Below, in pieces: positions 6,701-17,212 of a stretch of DNA of 32,785 nucleotides. Both the position numbers and the translations under genes were made by a program. The stretch spans positions 19,437 to 52,221 of the forward strand of contig NZGY01000103.1 of NCBI GenBank assembly GCA_002689605.1, written 5' to 3'. Numbering within the stretch: position 1 is the first letter of the stretch; every line of letters starts with the position of its first letter. The notes under the pieces were generated by a model that made no database searches, had not been told where the DNA came from, and was given only the letters and a program-made list of their open reading frames with translations. The DNA comes from Filomicrobium sp. Its GTDB lineage: Bacteria; Pseudomonadota; Alphaproteobacteria; Rhizobiales; Hyphomicrobiaceae.

Positions 6701-7954
6701 CTATGCTGCAATCGCGTCAGGAACCAATGGCGATATCACATCATAGCGCACGCCGTCCTTGAGGCAGTACAGTGGTCGGATCAGTTTTTCACTAACCTCT
6801 TCGGCGCCGCTATTGTCGGACAATAGAAAGCGACCACTATCGATCGACAAGACACTCACGTCAGCTGGTCTTCCGACCTGCAATGATCCGATCTCATCGT
6901 CCATGCCCAGCATCGAAGCAGGATTGGATGTAACCATCGCCACAATAGTTTGCAGCTCGACACCAAGGTGAAGCATCTCAGTCATCGCGATAGTCAGATT
7001 GAACGGTGCCACACCAAAAAACGGATTGGCCTCTCGGTCAGAATTAGAGCCGCCACTTGGCACAGTCACATTGTAGCCATGCATATCCGCACCAAGCGTG
7101 TGAGGAATGATACCAGCGTCCAACGCAATTCTGGCAACCTCAAAGCTAAAGTGAGAGCCATGCCCTACGTCAACACGAACGCCGCGATTGTGAACCGCCT
7201 CAAGCAATATCGGATGAACCTCGCCTTTGCTCGACACAAAGCCTCCAGGATGCCGCGTAAATGGATGCGCCATAATATCTCCAGGCTCCATCAGCGGTGT
7301 GAGTTCCTGAATTAACTCATCCGCATCAGGAATTTCGGCCGAGTCAGCCGTCGGCCACAACTGGCCGAGATGGATATAAAGCGGTAGTTTGGTCTCGCGT
7401 GAAATTTCCTTACCGATCTTGATCACGTCCATTCCCCAACGGGATTGACCGCCAATCTCAGCATGGGCCTTGATACCGCGAACCATATCCAGGTTTTCAA
7501 GAGCTACCTTGATCGTGTGTTCTTTATTGACCCCACCGGGACCATAGAGATCTGGATAGAGATGCCCCTCGAGTCCACCGACGAGATAACAAGAAATAAA
7601 GCACAACGCCCGTGTCGTTGAAGGTTCGGCCACATAGTGACGGAAACCACCGATGGTCATGCAGCTCGGGCCACCCTGATCCACCAGTGTTGTAACTCCG
7701 GATTGGATACCGACCATGTCGGCATTCAAACCAAACTTTCCAGTGACGTGTTGATAGACATGAGCATGCGTATCGATCATTCCGGGGATAACCAACTGAC
7801 CCGCAGCATCTATTCGCTCTGAAGCTTCAGCTTGAGAAAGGTCAGTATCGACCGCAGAAATCTTGCCCTTTGAGATCCCAACGTCGAAGCGGCCGTTGCG
7901 ACCAGCTGCCGGATCAATCAGCGTACCATTCTCGATAATTACGTCGTGCATCAT
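6701..7954 (-). CDS. Amidohydrolase, dihydroorotase/deacetylase-like metallohydrolase
   Basis: This 417-residue member of the amidohydrolase superfamily should have a TIM barrel and metal centre. The N-terminal beta sandwich strand leads into P-G-M-I-D-T-H-A-H, with metal ligands His63 and His65. A probable carbamylated Lys is Lys162 in I-K-A-H, followed by His195 (Y-I-H-L-G), His230 (A-H-P-F) and Asp290 (G-A-D-M-H-G). This is the order found in dihydroorotase, hydantoinase and the amidohydrolase/deacetylase group. Such enzymes hydrolyse cyclic amides, imides or N-acyl compounds. Two ATGs are adjacent (7954 and 7951); AGGAG lies just upstream and is better spaced for the second. It is the first gene of the minus-strand cluster and diverges from the Mo hydroxylase genes, which suggests that it opens a ring oxidised by that enzyme. 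Confidence 0.85.
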   Translation of the reverse strand: MMHDVIIENGTLIDPAAGRNGRFDVGISKGKISAVDTDLSQAEASERIDAAGQLVIPGMIDTHAHVYQHVTGKFGLNADMVGIQSGVTTLVDQGGPSCMTIGGFRHYVAEPSTTRALCFISCYLVGGLEGHLYPDLYGPGGVNKEHTIKVALENLDMVRGIKAHAEIGGQSRWGMDVIKIGKEISRETKLPLYIHLGQLWPTADSAEIPDADELIQELTPLMEPGDIMAHPFTRHPGGFVSSKGEVHPILLEAVHNRGVRVDVGHGSHFSFEVARIALDAGIIPHTLGADMHGYNVTVPSGGSNSDREANPFFGVAPFNLTIAMTEMLHLGVELQTIVAMVTSNPASMLGMDDEIGSLQVGRPADVSVLSIDSGRFLLSDNSGAEEVSEKLIRPLYCLKDGVRYDVISPLVPDAIAA

Positions 7955-8107: not shown

Positions 8108-10483
8108 ATGGCGGTTGTCGACGATAGCGCGAAAGACCAAGGCATTGGCGCGCGATTGCGCCGAAGTGAAGATGACCGATATTTGCGCGGACGAGGGCGT
8201 TATGTCGCCGATATTCGTCGCCCAGGCATGCTCGAGATGGCATTCGTGCGTAGTCCTTTGGCACATGCCAACATTTGCGGCATTTCAAAACCTAGTACCG
8301 ACGCTGACATCAGATATGAGAATGTATTCACAAACGCGGACCTCACCGGGGTAACCGGCATTATTGCAAATTGTGCGCTCCCTGGATTTCGTAGTTCCGA
8401 GCAACCAGTACTGGCCCATGACAAAGTGCGTCACGTCGGCGAACCAATTGTAGCTTGCCTGGCGGAGACACGCGCGGCAGCCGAAGATCTTGCGGAACTC
8501 GTCGACATTGATTTCGAGGAATTAACGGCCGTCGCGGATATGACAACCGCCCGCGGCAGAGACATGCCGTTGCTGCACGAGCATTGGGAAGAAAACGCCT
8601 TTCTTGAAACCAACGTGGACACGAACTTCGAGGCAGCGATCGTCGGTGCAGCTTCAGTTATCACACGGACCTATCGTACGGCGCGGCAATGCATGGCCCC
8701 CATCGAAGGACGAGGCTGTCTCGCCGAATGGGATCGTCATCTGGAACAGCTCACGCTGCACACAGCAGCGCAAATGCCCCACATCGTCCGCACAGGTCTC
8801 GCGGAATGCCTTGGCCTGGATCACGGACAAGTCCGCATCATATCACCAGATGTCGGCGGTGGTTTCGGTTACAAGGGAATATTGCTCGTCGAAGAAGTCT
8901 GCGCCAGCTTTCTGGCGATGAAGCTTGATCGCCCGATCCGCTGGATTGAAGATCGACGAGAGCATCTGACCAGCGGTGCCAATTGTCGCGAACACTACTA
9001 CGAAGTAACGGGCTATGCAGCAGCTGACGGCGAGTTACTTGCAGTTGACTGCGAAGCTCTTGTCGACTCAGGAGCCTACTCACTTTATCCGTTCTCTGCT
9101 TGTCTTGAGGCTGCGCAAGTTACAAGCATTCTCCCTGGTCCCTACAAGCTTCAAGGCTTCCGCTGCAAAGCGATATCTGTTGCAACCAACAAGCCGAGCA
9201 TCCTGCCTTTTCGCGGTGTTGCACGCACCGGGGTCTGCTTTGCCATGGAGCTGATGATGGATGCGCTGGCAGAGGATCTCGGGCTTACACCTGAGGCCAT
9301 CCGCCAGCGCAATCTCGTGCCGCCGAGCGAGATGCCCTTCACAAACATCACCAACAAATTCTTTGACAGTGGAGACTATCCTCAGGCACTGCAACGCGCA
9401 GTCGAAGCCATCGATGTCGAAGGGGCCCGCCAACAACAGAGCGCTACAACTGGCAACACACGTATTGGCGTTGGATTCTCGATCTTCTGCGAACAAGGTG
9501 CCCATGGCACGACAGTCTATCAGGGCTGGGGAGTGCCTATGGTACCCGGCTATGAACAGGCAACTGCCCGACTAACACCAGACGGCGGACTGGAATTACG
9601 CGTCGGCGTGCATAGTCATGGTCAGGGCCTGGAGACGACACTCGCACAAATTGCTCACTCTGAACTCGGAATCTCCCCCGCCAAGATCAAAGTTGTTCAT
9701 GGCGACACAGCCTACACACCATACTCAACCGGCACTTGGGGATCACGCTGTATTGTGATGGCTGGAGGGGCGGTCGGCACTGCAGCCGCAGCTATTGGCG
9801 ATCGGATTCGCGCTATTGCGGGGCATCTGCTCCAGGCCAAACCGGATGACATTGTACTGCAGGGAGGTTTCGCGCGCGCAGGCGACGCTGAGATCAGTCT
9901 CGAAGAAGTGGCACACACCTGGTACCGCAAACCACACTTCCTGCCGCCGGATATGGATCCACGCGGCCTCGAAGCCACCGAGGGCTACAAGACCAAACCC
10001 GATACCGGCACATTCTCCTACGCCTGCCATGCCGTTAAGGTGAGTGTCGACCTCGACCTCGGGCAAATCGAGCTCCTCGATTATGTCGTTGTCGAAGATG
10101 CAGGGACCATGATCAATCCCATGGTTGTCGACGGTCAGGTCTTAGGCGGTACCGTCCAGGGAATTGGAACTGCACTCTTCGAAGAAATGCCCTTTGACGC
10201 CGGAGGCCAACCACTCGCATCAACACTGGCTGACTATCACTTGCCGGTGGCAGCGGACATTCCTCCCATCCGCATCGTCCACATGGAAACACCCTCACCG
10301 CTCAGTAAGTACGGACAGAAGGGTATTGGCGAAAGCGGCGCCATTGGTCCTCCAGCGGCAATTGCAAACGCGGTCAATGATGCGCTTCGCCCACTAGGTG
10401 CCCGCGTCAATGAAATACCAATGACACCCGAGCGCGTTCTGAGCGCTCTGGCCACTGCGGCTGGTGAGGGGAACAAGTCATGA
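8108..10483 (+). CDS. Xanthine dehydrogenase family molybdopterin-binding large subunit (CoxL-like)
   Basis: This 791-residue protein is the catalytic subunit of a three-subunit molybdenum hydroxylase. It has an N-terminal alpha/beta hammerhead domain (about 15-130) followed by the molybdopterin-binding domains. Visible landmarks are Gln222 in A-A-Q-M-P-H, the G-G-G-F-G-Y-K-G loop (250-257), and the catalytic Glu742 in G-I-G-E-S-G. The active-site loop reads P-F-R-G-V-A-R (367-373). CO dehydrogenase form I has A-Y-x-C-S-F-R and the common form II has A-Y-R-G-A-G-R, so this is not a CO-oxidising enzyme; an aldehyde or N-heterocycle is the likely substrate. The next two genes overlap by four bases each, giving the L-M-S order seen in cox-type operons. 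The electron path would be Mo, two [2Fe-2S] clusters, then FAD. Confidence 0.93.
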   Translation: MAVVDDSAKDQGIGARLRRSEDDRYLRGRGRYVADIRRPGMLEMAFVRSPLAHANICGISKPSTDADIRYENVFTNADLTGVTGIIANCALPGFRSSEQPVLAHDKVRHVGEPIVACLAETRAAAEDLAELVDIDFEELTAVADMTTARGRDMPLLHEHWEENAFLETNVDTNFEAAIVGAASVITRTYRTARQCMAPIEGRGCLAEWDRHLEQLTLHTAAQMPHIVRTGLAECLGLDHGQVRIISPDVGGGFGYKGILLVEEVCASFLAMKLDRPIRWIEDRREHLTSGANCREHYYEVTGYAAADGELLAVDCEALVDSGAYSLYPFSACLEAAQVTSILPGPYKLQGFRCKAISVATNKPSILPFRGVARTGVCFAMELMMDALAEDLGLTPEAIRQRNLVPPSEMPFTNITNKFFDSGDYPQALQRAVEAIDVEGARQQQSATTGNTRIGVGFSIFCEQGAHGTTVYQGWGVPMVPGYEQATARLTPDGGLELRVGVHSHGQGLETTLAQIAHSELGISPAKIKVVHGDTAYTPYSTGTWGSRCIVMAGGAVGTAAAAIGDRIRAIAGHLLQAKPDDIVLQGGFARAGDAEISLEEVAHTWYRKPHFLPPDMDPRGLEATEGYKTKPDTGTFSYACHAVKVSVDLDLGQIELLDYVVVEDAGTMINPMVVDGQVLGGTVQGIGTALFEEMPFDAGGQPLASTLADYHLPVAADIPPIRIVHMETPSPLSKYGQKGIGESGAIGPPAAIANAVNDALRPLGARVNEIPMTPERVLSALATAAGEGNKS

Positions 10484-11325
10484 AGCCTGCCAGATTCGAT
10501 TACGCCACACCTCAGAGCGCATCCGAAGTCTCTACCCAACTAAGCAACGGAAACGGCAACACTAAGCTTGTTGCCGGCTCACAATCGCTGGGCCCAATGC
10601 TCAATCTCCGCCTGGCGCGACCTGAGCGACTGTTAGATGTCTCGGCACTACGCGATCTGCGTGAAGTTCGTGAAACTGCAAGTGGCTGTGAAATTGGGGC
10701 GTCGATCACCCACGCCGAGATCGAAGATGGTGACATCAATGACCCCACCAATGGTTGGTTGCGCGAGGCAGCAGCCAACATCGCCCATCGCGCAGTTCGC
10801 AACAGAGGAACACTGGGCGGCAGCCTCGCCCACGCTGACCCTGCCGCCGACTGGGTCATTGTCATGACGGGGCTTGGAGCAACGGTGTTGATTGACGGAC
10901 CGAAGGGACCGCGCGAAGTTGCAATGAAAGACTTCGTCACCGGACCTTTTGAAACAGCACTTTGCCAAGACGAACTCATCAAAGCTGTCCGCGTTCCCAA
11001 GTTTGCCGCCAGCGCTCGCTGGGGCTACTGGAAATTCGTGCGGCAAGTCGGTGAGTTTGCCAAAGCCAGTGCAACCGTGCTTGTGGAACCCGATAAGGAG
11101 TCAGCACGTATCGCAATTGGTGCACTCGGCCGTCAGCCTCTCGTTCTGGGCACAGAGACGTCTAAAGATTTGCTCGAAAGCCGAATTCAGACAGCAGAGG
11201 CTCTCTCAGCAGCACTCCCCAACCGAACCGTAGCGGACTTAAGCATGCACACGGCGGCATTGAACAAGGCTATAGCTCTCGCCCAAGAGAACAATAGTTC
11301 GAGCGATGGAGGCTCAACCGCATGA
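10480..11325 (+). CDS. Molybdenum hydroxylase FAD-binding subunit (CoxM-like)
   Basis: This 281-residue protein is the medium subunit of the hydroxylase. The first FAD-pyrophosphate motif appears as A-G-S-Q-S-L (32-37, usually A-G-G-Q-S-L). The second is the R-N-x-G-T-x-G-G-S-L-A-H-A-D-P region starting near residue 108, both in their expected places. The C-terminal third is the CO dehydrogenase flavoprotein C-terminal domain. It would take electrons from the iron-sulfur subunit and pass them to quinone or another acceptor. The ATG overlaps the large subunit TGA by four bases, and its own stop overlaps the next gene by four bases, so the three are translationally coupled. Length is normal for the family. 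Confidence 0.93.
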   Translation: MKPARFDYATPQSASEVSTQLSNGNGNTKLVAGSQSLGPMLNLRLARPERLLDVSALRDLREVRETASGCEIGASITHAEIEDGDINDPTNGWLREAAANIAHRAVRNRGTLGGSLAHADPAADWVIVMTGLGATVLIDGPKGPREVAMKDFVTGPFETALCQDELIKAVRVPKFAASARWGYWKFVRQVGEFAKASATVLVEPDKESARIAIGALGRQPLVLGTETSKDLLESRIQTAEALSAALPNRTVADLSMHTAALNKAIALAQENNSSSDGGSTA

Positions 11326-12461
11326 GCGAAGTGGAGATAAACCTCACCGTCAACGGTCGCAGCGTCCAAAGTTCGGTCGAACCACGCACCCACTTGGCAG
11401 ATTTCCTGCGCGAGCAACTGTTGCTTACCGGCACCCACCTCGGCTGCGAGCAAGGTGTCTGTGGTGCATGCACAGTCATGATCAATGGCCGGCCAAGCCG
11501 TTCCTGCATTACTTTGGCAGCCTCCTGCGATGCCGCAGACATAAGAACAATTGAGAGTTTCGATGATGATCCATTGATGGTGAAGTTGCGCGATGCCTTC
11601 TCAGAACATCACGGTTTGCAATGCGGGTTCTGTACACCGGGACTGTTGACAACGGCCTATGACGTTGTACGGCGCGTTCCAGATGCGGACGCATCCAAAA
11701 TTCGAAAGGAACTATCAGGAAACCTCTGCCGGTGCACAGGCTATCAAGGAGCTGTGCAAGCCGTTGAGCACGTGATTGCGACCAACCCTCCTACAGCCGA
11801 ACTGCAACCAGGGCCACACACCCAACCACGTATCGGAGCAGCATCAACCGTCAATACAGCCCCGGACACGCCCGCACCAACGAGCGCAAACGTCTCGCTT
11901 CCTGACGAAATAAAAGACGGCATCAAGCTTGAACGTCGCATAGAGATTGCGGCCCCTGCAGACAAGGTTTGGGACGTCCTCAGCGATATCAAAGGTATTG
12001 CAGAATGTGTTCCCGGCGGTTCAATCACAAGAGTGGAAGGATCGGTTGTCGAAGGCCTGATGACGGTGGGCCTCGGTCCTATGCGTGCCAATTTCCAGGG
12101 CGCCGCCAACGTAACGTTCGACCCGGCGACACAATCCGGCAAGTTGCTCGGTCGTGGCGGTGATAGACTTACCAGGTCAAATGTTGATGGAGAGATGACG
12201 TTCCAACTTCACACGACCAGCGCTGACCAATCTGAATTGGAACTAAACATCCTATACAAACTCAAAGGACCTTTGGCTCAATTTGGCCGTCCGGCAATCG
12301 TTTCCGAAGTCGCCGATAAAATCCTGGCAGACACAGCTGCAAGTATTGCAGCCAAGGCGACCGGTAATGAGCACGCATCTGCCACGCAGAAACCCGCGGG
12401 AGGGCTGACACTTCTTTGGTCTGCTCTGCTGGGCATGTTCAAAGGTTTCTTCCGGCGTTGA
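11322..12461 (+). CDS. Fusion of CoxS-like [2Fe-2S] subunit with CoxG-like SRPBCC domain
   Basis: This 379-residue protein joins two proteins that are usually separate. Residues 1-155 form the small hydroxylase subunit, with the plant-type cluster ligands Cys42, Cys47, Cys50 and Cys62 and the second-cluster ligands Cys101, Cys104, Cys136 and Cys138 (C-G-F-C-T-P-G and L-C-R-C-T-G). A Pro/Ala/Thr-rich linker covers about 156-199. Residues 200-345 form a CoxG/SRPBCC domain, beginning with E-I-A-A-P-A-D-K-V-W. A short hydrophobic tail with basic end (about 363-379) resembles the CoxG membrane anchor. CoxG recruits CO dehydrogenase to the membrane, so the fusion may tie this hydroxylase permanently to the membrane and its electron acceptor. 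The reading frame is continuous and the linker is simple, so the fusion looks real. Confidence 0.9.
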   Translation: MSEVEINLTVNGRSVQSSVEPRTHLADFLREQLLLTGTHLGCEQGVCGACTVMINGRPSRSCITLAASCDAADIRTIESFDDDPLMVKLRDAFSEHHGLQCGFCTPGLLTTAYDVVRRVPDADASKIRKELSGNLCRCTGYQGAVQAVEHVIATNPPTAELQPGPHTQPRIGAASTVNTAPDTPAPTSANVSLPDEIKDGIKLERRIEIAAPADKVWDVLSDIKGIAECVPGGSITRVEGSVVEGLMTVGLGPMRANFQGAANVTFDPATQSGKLLGRGGDRLTRSNVDGEMTFQLHTTSADQSELELNILYKLKGPLAQFGRPAIVSEVADKILADTAASIAAKATGNEHASATQKPAGGLTLLWSALLGMFKGFFRR

Positions 12462-12484: not shown

Positions 12485-13642
12485 ATGAGCGGCAACGATC
12501 CAACAGGTCTGTCTCACCAAAAACTCTGCGCAGTCGAGCCAGCGCTGTCATCAATTGCACCGCTCCGAGACTTCAAGTCAGTTGCAGACAAGACGTTGTT
12601 TCACGCCGGCCCTCCATTGATAGATCCAACGTCTCCACCTGCACCTTTACTGAACGGCATTCTCGCTGCAATCGTGCTTGAGAGATGGGCAAGTTCTCGC
12701 GAAGAGGCGGAAGCATTGTTCGCGAGCGGTGAAGTTAAGCTTAGCCCAGCTCAAGATGCCGGCATCGTCACACCGCTCGCGTTTGTCGTTGGCTCAAGTA
12801 CCGTTTGCCTCAAAGTAAGTGACCTAAACCAGACTGACCGGTTCGTGCTCTCTCCTCTCAATGACGGACCACCTCCCCATGCCATACGGTTTGGCACCTA
12901 CCATGATGCCGGACTGACAATCGTCCAATCATTGATCGACGGCGTTGGGAACGATCTAGCCAATGCTCTCAAAGCCCCCATCCCCCTACTGCCTCAAATG
13001 GCTGCCGCTCTTGCAGACGGAGATGAGTTGCATGGCCGTGTTGCAAGTATGCAGCAGCAGATTCGAGCCATCCTGGACACGCAACTCAGTCCACGTGCAA
13101 CCAAGTATTTGGATGGCGCCGGACAATTCGCATTAAACGCCATAATGGCGGCCGCCGCTTTGATGATTGAAGCAGGCGCTGGCATCCCTGGCAGCAGAAT
13201 GCTCGTTGCATGCGGAGGCAATGGTGAAAGCTTAGGTTTCAAAGTCGCCGATGCTCCAGATAAATGGCTTACGAAACCAGCCACCCGGCCAATCGGTGGC
13301 CGTCTCCCGGGCCTTGAGCAAACTGATGCTCTGCCAGCCATCGGTGACAGCGCTGTCATAGATGCTTTCGGCTTCGGCGCAGCCTGCCTAAGATTCAGCC
13401 CAGAAATAGCGGGTAGTTTGCAAGATCAGTTTGACCGACAGCTGATTTCATCCGCATTCCTGGACGATCGCGCACACAACGCATTCATTGGGCCTCACCC
13501 CAGACTCGGCAACGATAGCATTCGTGTCGGGTTGGACTTGAGCCAGCCGCGAGAATGCCTTGGCATCAACCTTGGGATTGTCGAAGAAACCGGAAAGCAC
13601 GGGTTGATCGGCCGGGGTGTGGCGCCTTGGCCCCAGGGTTAA
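12485..13642 (+). CDS. DUF1116 family protein (AllG/YlbE-like)
   Basis: This 385-residue protein has the DUF1116 pattern: H-A-G-P-P near residue 40, a helix with A-A-I-V-L-E-R-W, the segment E-E-A-E-A-L-F-A-S-G-E-V, A-D-G-D-E-L-H-G-R, and near the C-terminal third a G-G-N-G-E-x-L-G-F-K-V strand followed by A-I-G-D-S-A-V-I-D-A. The family includes YlbE/AllG of E. coli, a component of the oxamate carbamoyltransferase that makes carbamoyl phosphate in allantoin breakdown. The usual partners FdrA and AllH, and a carbamate kinase, are not in this window. Family assignment is from recognition of the motif pattern. The gene follows the CoxS-CoxG fusion after 23 bases with GAGG five bases before the ATG, so it belongs to the hydroxylase operon. 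A role in handling a carbamoyl or ureido intermediate is an inference. Confidence 0.75.
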   Translation: MSGNDPTGLSHQKLCAVEPALSSIAPLRDFKSVADKTLFHAGPPLIDPTSPPAPLLNGILAAIVLERWASSREEAEALFASGEVKLSPAQDAGIVTPLAFVVGSSTVCLKVSDLNQTDRFVLSPLNDGPPPHAIRFGTYHDAGLTIVQSLIDGVGNDLANALKAPIPLLPQMAAALADGDELHGRVASMQQQIRAILDTQLSPRATKYLDGAGQFALNAIMAAAALMIEAGAGIPGSRMLVACGGNGESLGFKVADAPDKWLTKPATRPIGGRLPGLEQTDALPAIGDSAVIDAFGFGAACLRFSPEIAGSLQDQFDRQLISSAFLDDRAHNAFIGPHPRLGNDSIRVGLDLSQPRECLGINLGIVEETGKHGLIGRGVAPWPQG

Positions 13643-13998: not shown

Positions 13999-14201
13999 TT
14001 GTCCTCTTATATTCAATCCCAGATCAAGTCGTTAGGAGTAGAGCGATTGCAATCCTGGCTTCGATCCACTTGCAACACGTTCGCGATTTGACGCATCATA
14101 CCAACTAAGCAGTTCTCCAGCTATTTCGTCGATTGCAATCAAGTCTTTTTCCATGGATAGTCCGCCTCATGACATACAGGGACGGAAGCAATACGCACGT
14201 G
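13999..14201. promoter_or_regulatory. Divergent region between Rieske ferredoxin and RND relic
   Basis: About 200 bases separate two divergent genes and must hold the Rieske gene promoter. The only clear element is the GAGGA ribosome binding site of the Rieske gene (minus strand). An open frame runs through 14133-14201 into the adaptor relic, but it does not look like protein. Confidence 0.35.
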
Positions 14202-15317
14202 ATGCATAAAGCCTGGATCGTTCGATCAAAGTTAGCGCTCACTCTTTTTGCTAACGCGCTCCTGCTGGCCACGCCGACATCGGCACAACAAAAGAATTCA
14301 CAATTACCAAGTGTGATCGTCCAAACAATTGAAGAAAAGGACGTCACGCCCGAGTTCAGGTATGTCGGACGCGTGGTGGCTCGCGACACCGTTTCTATCC
14401 GCGGCCGCGTGTCAGGCATTTTGGAGCGACGAAACTTCGTTGAAGGCCTCACCGTCAAAGAGGGACTGGTTCTTTTCGAGCTTGAAAAAGCTCCTTATCA
14501 GGTTGTCGTTGATCAGCGAAAGGCCGAACTCGCCAGTGCCAAGGCAAAGCTCGTTAATGCCGAAGCCGACTTCAAGCGCAAGAGTTCATTGCAGGGCCGG
14601 AATGTTGTTTCTGAAGCATCACTCGATGAGTCCTGAGCCAGCAAGCTTTCAGGTGAAGCCGATGTTCTGAAGGCCGAAGCTGCTTTGAGAGCAGCTGAGC
14701 TCAACCTTGGCTACACGACCGTAGTAAGCCCGATATCCGGCAAGATCAGCACAGCCAAGTATAGCGTTGGCAATCTTGTCACGACCACAAGCGACCCTTT
14801 GGCGACCGTTACCAGCGTCGATCCCATCTATGTCACCATCGGTGTCAGCGAGAAACAGATGATTGATGCTCGCAAACGCGGGATCGACCTGAAGAACCCT
14901 CCTGTTGCGCCATTTCTCCGGCTGTCTGATGGTACGGACTACAAATTGCCAGGCGCCTTCAACTACCTCTCGCCTGATGTCAATCAGAGCACGGACACGA
15001 TCACGGCACGTGCGCAATTCCCCAATCCTAACGGTGTTTCGCTTCCAGGACAGTTCGTAACGGTTGTCATTCGCCCGAAACAGACCGAGCGCTCGATTGT
15101 CGTTCCACAGGTCGCCGTTCAACGCGATAGCGAAGGCTACTTTGTTCTCGTGGTTGATCGAGAGGATAAGGTCGAAGCCCGGCGCATCACTGCCGAGCGA
15201 CAGGTCGAAACAGACTGGGTCGTGTCCAACGGGCTGGCGACAGGAGAGCGTGTCATCATTGATGGCATTCAGAAGGTTCGACCGACCATGGTGGTCAAGC
15301 CGGTTAAAGCGTCCTAA
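14202..15317 (+). pseudogene. RND efflux periplasmic adaptor (AcrA/MexE-like), broken by an internal TGA
   Basis: The frame encodes a membrane-fusion protein that would link an RND pump to an outer-membrane channel. It has a signal-peptide-like start (M-H-K-A-W... ending near A-T-P-T-S-A-Q), then a barrel-sandwich strand with Y-V-G-R-V, an alpha-helical hairpin, the return strand with V-V-S-P-I-S-G, and a C-terminal barrel to 15317. A TGA at 14634-14636 interrupts it inside the helical hairpin, and the same frame continues with matching sequence on the other side. This is a single nonsense change, for example CGA to TGA. There is no frameshift. The ATG at 14202 fits the signal peptide; in-frame ATGs at 14133 and 14169 are alternatives. 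The pump gene follows after 20 bases and is truncated too. Confidence 0.85.
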
Positions 15318-15337
15318 CGCACACCAGAGAGGCAACC

Positions 15338-17212
15338 ATGTTTTCGGCCTTTTTCATTAGCCGCCCGAAGTTCGCGTTGGTTATTTCGATCGTCATCTCT
15401 TTGGTAGGCTTTATCGCTCTGAGTGTTCTCCCCGTCGAAGAGTTCCCAGACGTCGCCCCGCCACAAGTTCAGGTGACGGCAAATTACACCGGAGCGAATG
15501 CAACTGCCGTCGAACAGTCTGTGGCTGCGCCCATTGAAGACGAAGTCAATGGCGTCGATGACATGCTTTATATGTCATCGAACAGTAACAATGATAGCAC
15601 TTACACACTGACTGTCACCTTCGATGTTGGCACCAACCCTGACATTGCTGCAGTAAACATACAAAACAGGGTCGCCACAGCGACCGCGCAGTTACCTTCA
15701 GAAGTAACGAGAAGTGGCGTCACCACCAAGAAACAATCATCCAGCCTGCTGATGGTGATTACGCTTCTGTCGCCAAAGCAATCACGCGATGCATTGTTTC
15801 GCAGCAATTATGCGTCAATCAACATTCAATATAGCCTGTCACGCATAAAGGGCGTTGGCAGCGTCTCACAGTTCGGACCACTCGACTACGGCATGCGCGT
15901 GTGGTTGGATCCGGATCGCCTGACCTCTCTCAATCTAACGACCGCAGACGTTAGTAACGCCATTTCAAGTCAGAATGTGCAGGCGACAGCCGGCCAACTC
16001 GGCGCGCCACCTTACGACACCCGCTCGCATTTCCAGCTTACAATTCAGGCCAAGGGGCGCCTCAAAACAGTTGAAGAGTTCGGGAATATTGTGCTGCGCG
16101 CCAATGCCGATGGCTCCTTCATAAGATTGAAGGACGTGGCACGCATCGAACTCGGTTCGCAGAACTACGGTTCGACAACCACGTTGAACAACTCGCCGGC
16201 AGCAGCAATTGGCATCTACCAGTCTCCAGGTGCCAACGCGCTAGACGTCGCAAACAAAATCTACGCTGAACTCGAACGCCTGGAGAAGCGCTTTCCGCCA
16301 GACGTTGAATACAATATTGTTTATGACACCACTCTATCTGTTCGAGCCTCGGTTCAGGAAGTTGTCACCACACTCTTCATGACGCTTGCGCTAGTGGTGG
16401 CGGTAACTTTCCTATTCCTCGCCGATTGGCGATCAACATTAATCCCGACGCTGGCTATCCCGGTTTCATTGATAGGCACGTTCGCATTCCTGTACCTCTT
16501 TGGCTTCTCAATCAATACCATCACACTATTCGCGATTATTCTGGCTCTTGGCGTGGTCGTAGATGACAGCATTGTCGTTGTTGAAAACGTTCAACGCCTA
16601 ATGGATGAAGAAGGTCTCGAGGTCCGGGAAGCGACGCGAAAATCCATGCAACAGGTCACCGGGCCGGTGATCGCGACCACTCTCGTGTTGTTGGCTGTGT
16701 TCGTCCCAGTGTCATTCATGCCTGGTATTACGGGCGTGCGGTATCGACAGTTTGCTATCACAATTAGCGTCGCTGTTTGTATCTCATCTCTGAATGCACT
16801 AACGCTTGCTCCTGCGCTGTGTGCCCTCATTCTGAAACCGGGCAGCTCAAAACCAACTGGCCCACTCGGTTACTTTGCGGCAGCAGTGGACTGGATGCGG
16901 GATCGGTTCGGATCAACCGCCAGCGCTATGGTACGCCGCGTTTTCGTATCTCTCGCCGTCTTCGCGCTGTTCGTGGCTGCAACCGGCTGGCTATTTTCAC
17001 GCGTTCCAACAGGGTTCCTGCCGCTTGAAGACAAAGGCGCACTGATGGCCAACATCCAACTACCGGATGGAGCCTCATTGTCCCGAACTCAGGAAGTCGC
17101 CGAACGCGCATCGGGAATGATGAGAGAAATAGCCGGCGTTCGTGATGTCCTGGCGGTGCCTGGCTATAGCTTGCTATCCGGAGCAGCGCGAAGCAGACGC
17201 GTATCAACCTGA
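15338..17212 (+). pseudogene. RND efflux permease, 3'-truncated (AcrB/MexF-like)
   Basis: This 624-residue frame is the first 60 percent of an RND pump; intact ones have about 1030-1060 residues. The N-terminal membrane helix, the periplasmic porter domains and helices with the proton-relay motif V-D-D-S-I-V-V-V-E-N are normal. After residue ~616, in the second porter region (P-G-Y-S-L-L-S-G), the homology stops and nine unrelated residues lead to a TGA. DNA directly after reads as the end of an L,D-transpeptidase gene in another frame, so a deletion joined the two genes. The second membrane half and last porter subdomains are missing, so it cannot be a working pump. The start ATG has AGAGAGG at a good distance. 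Confidence 0.88.

Follow-up and report, generated by a model that had tools for sequence, protein, structure and literature searches.

Until now, AllG was known solely from one enzyme, in which three components, AllG among them, are all required. Here, a member of this family is encoded by the last gene of a molybdenum hydroxylase operon in Filomicrobium sp. The window, i.e., the whole stretch of 32,785 nt that was analysed, corresponds to contig C85:19437-52221 of genome G000. The preliminary description had assigned the product of the terminal gene to DUF1116, and the profile search bears this out: PF06545 (AllG, formerly DUF1116) matched the intact, ATG-initiated open reading frame over the entire profile (positions 1-215 of 215), the score being 128 bits (E 4.7e-37) and the cut-off 27 bits. 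The reported placement directly after coxL-coxM-coxS/G, at a distance of 23 bases, also agrees with the coordinates, and this gap contains a ribosome-site-like GAGAGG. The coxL/coxM and coxM/coxS-coxG reading frames overlap by 4 bases each, and all three subunits of a molybdenum hydroxylase of the xanthine oxidase family, with their domains (Mo-cofactor, FAD, and [2Fe-2S]), are present at 8108-12461 (Table 1). On the opposite strand, the product of the divergent gene matched NF006689 with 390 bits (cut-off 371) and is a member of a broad hydrolase family. Judging from its position between the divergent genes, the stretch separating them is likely a promoter region shared by the amidohydrolase gene and the cox operon.

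Table 1. Features of the DUF1116 locus in the window and MarR-DUF1116 fusions in related loci.
Coordinates	Strand	Feature	Profile match or basis
6701..7954	-	Amidohydrolase/deacetylase family metallohydrolase, divergent from the cox operon	NF006689
7955..8107	.	Intergenic stretch between the divergent amidohydrolase gene and the operon; putative promoter region	Position
8108..10483	+	CoxL-type molybdenum-cofactor subunit, molybdenum hydroxylase	PF20256, PF02738, PF01315
10480..11325	+	CoxM-type FAD subunit	PF00941; relatives 53-64% identical
11322..12461	+	CoxS-CoxG fusion: [2Fe-2S] subunit and CoxG domain	PF01799, PF00111, PF06240
12485..13642	+	Stand-alone DUF1116/AllG-like protein, 385 aa, last gene of the operon	PF06545
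13648..14016	-	Small Rieske [2Fe-2S] protein, convergent, 5 bases past DUF1116	PF00355
L057:9404-11128, L058:9458-11128, L059:165-1835, L068:9458-11128		MarR-DUF1116 fusion ORFs	

Among solved structures, the CoxL subunit was closest to quinoline 2-oxidoreductase (1t3q, E 1.4e-147). Molybdenum hydroxylases of this kind introduce a carbonyl at the ring carbon that neighbours a nitrogen, so that a lactam or a cyclic ureide is formed; to our knowledge, DUF1116 is not part of the described quinoline systems. This CoxL does not have the active-site loop motif of aerobic CO dehydrogenase: neither CSFR, as in form I, nor AYRGAGR, as in form II, occurs, and the loop reads FRGVAR. Beyond the operon, an RND efflux pair at 14133-17212 of the window looks decayed; a stop codon in frame splits its membrane-fusion gene into ORFs 14133-14636 and 14685-15317, and only 624 aa are encoded by the ORF of the pump. 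Three hydantoinase A/B pairs are situated within a span of about 40 kb on the window contig (window 19345-27222; L007:8663-12349), and a gene encoding the phosphonoacetate hydrolase PhnA (TIGR02335, above the cut-off) is located at L007:15583-16857, upstream of TRAP transporter genes that enter the window.

FdrA, AllH, and carbamate kinase, which had been reported as missing near DUF1116, indeed gave no match among the window proteins scanned or among scanned proteins from the 19.4 kb of contig upstream of the window. When the search was extended to the rest of the genome, as had been proposed, a second AllG was found on contig C128, in an ordinary allG-fdrA-allH operon (L006:5421-9234) in which the AllG gene is directly followed by fdrA and then allH, with an Lrp-type regulator upstream. 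The encoded FdrA matched NF004760 with 483.6 bits (cut-off 433), AllH matched PF11392, and the C128 AllG scored 294.7 bits against 128-130 bits for the window copy. No carbamate kinase was matched above the cut-off anywhere in the window genome by the family profile search. Since the genome holds this ordinary operon with its own AllG, and the two AllG proteins are 28% identical, the window copy is a diverged paralogue.

The position of this paralogue was clarified by its relatives. As a single query against the genome contigs and viral contigs, the window protein retrieved no confirmed relative. Full-length plasmid relatives, 31-37% identical, came from Azospirillum, Pacificitalea, Ruegeria, Rhodococcus, Caballeronia, and Paraburkholderia, and in a first tree these formed with the window protein a clade of 14 rows (support 100/100) apart from the canonical AllG group, with Pacificitalea as the closest row in that set. 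An alignment that took in these plasmid relatives then retrieved relatives from the genome contigs, of which the best 80 of 207 loci were surveyed; the best of these belong to Oceanibaculum, Hwanghaeella, Sneathiella, and Rhodovibrionaceae and are up to 55% identical to the window protein. A second tree, built from the window protein and 49 of the 80 loci against 12 canonical AllG sequences, separated stand-alone from canonical AllG by one fully supported branch (SH-aLRT 100). The window protein is thus a member of a separate stand-alone AllG subfamily with conserved neighbours. According to the preliminary description, a complete allFGH set elsewhere would mark this copy as a stray duplicate; such a set exists on C128, as does a canonical AllG from which a decaying copy could have arisen. 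However, the 28% identity to that copy compares with 51-55% to orthologues from other genera with the same gene order, and the reading frame is intact, retains all core residues, and falls into the separate clade. Conserved synteny refutes a stray duplicate, and we give this origin practically no credence.

In the closest relatives, the gene order comprises the amidohydrolase (-), coxL-coxM-coxS/G, usually a MarR gene, DUF1116, and the small Rieske protein (-); the window has no MarR gene. Between the window and the closest loci (L054-L063), identities are 73-77% for CoxL and 69-75% for the amidohydrolase. The neighbourhood survey that had been suggested showed that CoxL adjoins DUF1116 in 39 of the best 80 of 207 loci, while a Rieske ring-hydroxylating oxygenase takes its place in 33 of these 80; an amidase was found in 46/80, an amidohydrolase in 38/80, and HpxZ in 16/80 of the same neighbourhoods. 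Neither FdrA nor AllH nor carbamate kinase occurred in any of the best 80 of 207 neighbourhoods (0/80 each), and this absence of FdrA is not a blind spot, given that the same procedure found FdrA adjoining 16 of 21 canonical-type AllG genes. The 39 CoxL-type loci among the best 80 of 207 carry an amidohydrolase in 34 cases, MarR in 26, an orthologue of the small Rieske protein in 17, and HpxZ in 15, while HpxZ is absent from all surveyed Rieske-oxygenase loci (best 80 of 207). In Pseudomonadaceae (L082, L104, L110), closely related loci have either the CoxL or the Rieske version, and the amidohydrolase, DUF1116, amidase, and GGT-family genes stay constant despite the swap of the oxidase. Annotated example clusters are provided by Pacificitalea, Azospirillum, Ruegeria, Rhodococcus, Paraburkholderia, and Caballeronia; the Ruegeria cluster is composed of a Rieske oxygenase, two unknown proteins, DUF1116, and an amidase, and is situated beside sarcosine-oxidase-type genes. 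An adjacent pair of ~210-aa proteins (L043:10722-11977) recurs at Rieske-type DUF1116 loci (30/80 and 16/80 in the best 80 of 207), and the two had no Pfam match even at E 5. A phosphoribosyltransferase gene (PF00156) adjoins DUF1116 in 14 alphaproteobacterial loci (L059:2222-2968 and relatives). The combination of MarR, a Rieske oxygenase, and a Liv transporter also brought up auxin degradation, since the iad locus of Variovorax and Achromobacter likewise includes a MarR regulator, an ABC transporter, and a Rieske oxygenase; this candidate was rejected because iadA and iadB, which encode indolepyruvate ferredoxin oxidoreductases and accompany iadC-K in that locus, were not among the annotated neighbours, and DUF1116 is unmentioned in the iad papers.

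The lack of partners extends to whole genomes: no AllH was found in 37 and no FdrA in 38 of the 40 genomes that carry the stand-alone protein, and the subfamily is independent of AllF/AllH. As E. coli AllFGH requires all three genes (PMC11326118), the stand-alone protein must have another function or reach the same one by other means, in line with the different role that the preliminary description had considered. Its other suggestion, that the protein acts with partners encoded elsewhere, did not hold up: partners in trans were rejected for the subfamily on these genome counts. In the Filomicrobium genome itself, the complete C128 run could still be imagined to lend FdrA and AllH to the window protein, which would then serve as a working AllG subunit of oxamate carbamoyltransferase and pass the carbamoyl group of a ureido compound to phosphate. 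Yet that run has its own, far better-scoring AllG, the genome lacks a carbamate kinase match above the cut-off, and the canonical residues His90, Asn186, Arg245, and Gln374 are replaced in the stand-alone clade, so that we consider this borrowing very improbable. An oxamate carbamoyltransferase function of the window protein is not supported, and carbamoyl transfer via carbamoyl-phosphate chemistry is unlikely given the missing kinase and the switched residues.

The residues were compared between 50 stand-alone and 24 canonical-type sequences, a few of the latter without FdrA in view (window numbering). The core common to both groups consists of His40, Glu66, Arg135, Asp180, His183, Asn246, Trp261, and Gly287-Asp288-Ser289, and the core polar residues are invariant across the 50 stand-alone sequences. 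From canonical to stand-alone, His90 switches to Gln, Arg245 to Gly, and Glu293 to Asp; Asn186 and Gln374, conserved in the canonical group, have disappeared from the stand-alone clade. This pattern suggests that the substrate core was kept and that the carbamoyl/phosphate or partner-facing part was changed. In the AlphaFold2 model of the window protein (mean pLDDT 96.2, pTM 0.95), the whole AllG fold and the core residues are retained; the only clear fold match was 3clq, an AllG-family protein of Enterococcus faecalis with no function recorded (Z 53.3, TM 0.89, 376 residues, rmsd 2.1, 22% identity), and the next rows of the fold search had Z <=2.4. Compared to E. coli AllFGH (FdrA-YlbE-YlbF), the window protein belongs to the AllG-subunit family with its whole fold, but it falls into a separate clade without AllF/AllH, and its gene lies beside an oxidase instead of allantoin genes.

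Invariance of the core also bears on whether the protein is an enzyme at all. In four Sneathiella-type loci, MarR and DUF1116 form one ORF of ~557-575 aa (Table 1) with PF01047 at 47-104 and PF06545 at 261-465, and MarR accompanies two-thirds of the CoxL-type loci, as counted above for the best 80 of 207. The fusion links DUF1116 with the regulator of the pathway and would be compatible with sensing, DUF1116 then being a ligand-binding sensor or scaffold; an AllG protein alone could in principle be non-catalytic, considering that E. coli needs all three genes. A non-enzymatic role nevertheless appears improbable in view of the invariant polar core, of the catabolic enzymes that DUF1116 accompanies even when no MarR gene is nearby, and of the fact that most copies are unfused.

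We favour, with a probability of roughly 0.55, a reading in which the window DUF1116, a stand-alone, AllF/AllH-independent AllG-fold protein, serves in the oxidative breakdown of a nitrogen heterocycle. The molybdenum hydroxylase would oxygenate a ring carbon adjacent to nitrogen, giving a lactam or a cyclic ureide, and in other lineages a Rieske oxygenase could perform the equivalent oxygenation. The amidohydrolase, DUF1116, or both may then open the ring or cleave an exposed N-acyl or N-carbamoyl C-N bond, with DUF1116 possibly cleaving the C-N bond of an amide or ureide in the AllG substrate site, without forming carbamoyl phosphate. An amidase together with an AtzH/HpxZ-like protein would complete the breakdown of the small amide or carbamate in sister clusters. 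Based on the similarity of CoxL to quinoline 2-oxidoreductase and on the amidase and AtzH-like HpxZ of sister clusters, the C-N bond of the oxidised ring, or of the amide or ureide that results from its opening, is the most likely target. Both this reaction and the substrate are inferred, and the leading options for the latter are ureide-type and pyridine-type compounds.

A ureido substrate is made possible by the sister clusters, which carry HpxZ (PF11533, AtzH-like, above the cut-off), AtzE-related amidases, and GGT-family proteins. In this scheme, the oxidase would make a cyclic ureide of the hydantoin, barbiturate, or imidazolone type, and DUF1116 would cut the ureido C-N bond and feed an HpxY-HpxZ-HpxW-like module. 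DUF1989, which is linked to urea/guanidine carboxylase, and the phosphoribosyltransferase mentioned above recur near the DUF1116 genes, and the frequency of HpxZ among CoxL-type loci points in the same direction. Moreover, the known AllG-containing complex acts on oxalurate (PMC11326118), and AtzH is described as a decarboxylating amidohydrolase in cyanuric acid breakdown (PMC6219798). These amidase and HpxZ genes resemble the AtzEGH and HpxXYZ modules for cyanuric acid and oxalurate; none of the clusters read has an annotated AtzD-type ring opener, and DUF1116 is no part of those modules. Against a ureide route, the family search detected no HpxZ in the window genome, it is lacking at the Rieske-oxygenase loci surveyed, and the amidohydrolase family is too broad to point to ureides alone. 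Among ~20 amidase-signature matches in the window genome, none reached the cut-off for a PRK08310-type amidase, and for this reason the complete sister-cluster module is not to be assumed here; the HpxZ/PRK08310-type downstream module is not general. Altogether, we view a ureide route as possible but rather doubtful.

Alternatively, the substrate could be a pyridine-type ring, e.g., a pyridine carboxylate or an N-methyl pyridinium such as homarine, with DUF1116 and the amidase opening a pyridone or hydrolysing an N-acyl product. The affinity of CoxL to quinoline 2-oxidoreductase agrees with such a ring, and the sarcosine-oxidase-type genes beside the Ruegeria cluster would fit an N-methyl amino acid product. 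Homarine, for which Ruegeria has the operon homABCDER, serves as a lead for the Ruegeria-type cluster; our literature search found no paper on homarine-breakdown genes, nor one tying DUF1116 to pyridine breakdown. As the Rieske and CoxL branches may differ in substrate, and nearby HpxZ and DUF1989 suggest urea-like chemistry, we judge a pyridine-type substrate unlikely.

Returning to the stand-alone, heterocycle-directed reading, a bolder version is advanced here only tentatively: the AllG fold alone may act as an enzyme on C-N bonds of oxidised nitrogen heterocycles, either opening the ring or cleaving an N-acyl bond, and may represent the constant step of a widespread, undescribed pathway with an interchangeable molybdenum hydroxylase or Rieske oxygenase as the first step, and AllFGH may be a relative that gained carbamoyl-phosphate chemistry via FdrA and AllH. 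The stand-alone branch is a conserved, partner-free AllG branch in an undescribed catabolic cluster and not a lone oddity. A natural partner-free AllG offers a direct way to learn what the AllG fold catalyses, and the automatic naming of DUF1116 as oxamate carbamoyltransferase is probably wrong for the whole branch. The nearly constant placement of stand-alone AllG beside oxygen-adding enzymes in the best 80 of 207 loci points to an undescribed, widespread bacterial pathway for the degradation of nitrogen rings, and the conserved cluster that marks this uncharacterised route for heterocycles occurs in Azospirillum, Paraburkholderia, Caballeronia, Ruegeria, Pseudomonas, Sneathiella, and Rhodococcus, several of which can be cultured. 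Finally, one genome (G096; L038:6990-8237 and L039:6543-7784) contains another AllG-like group with no FdrA in view, the L039 copy being located ~4 kb from an ORF that resembles the urease alpha subunit by sequence.
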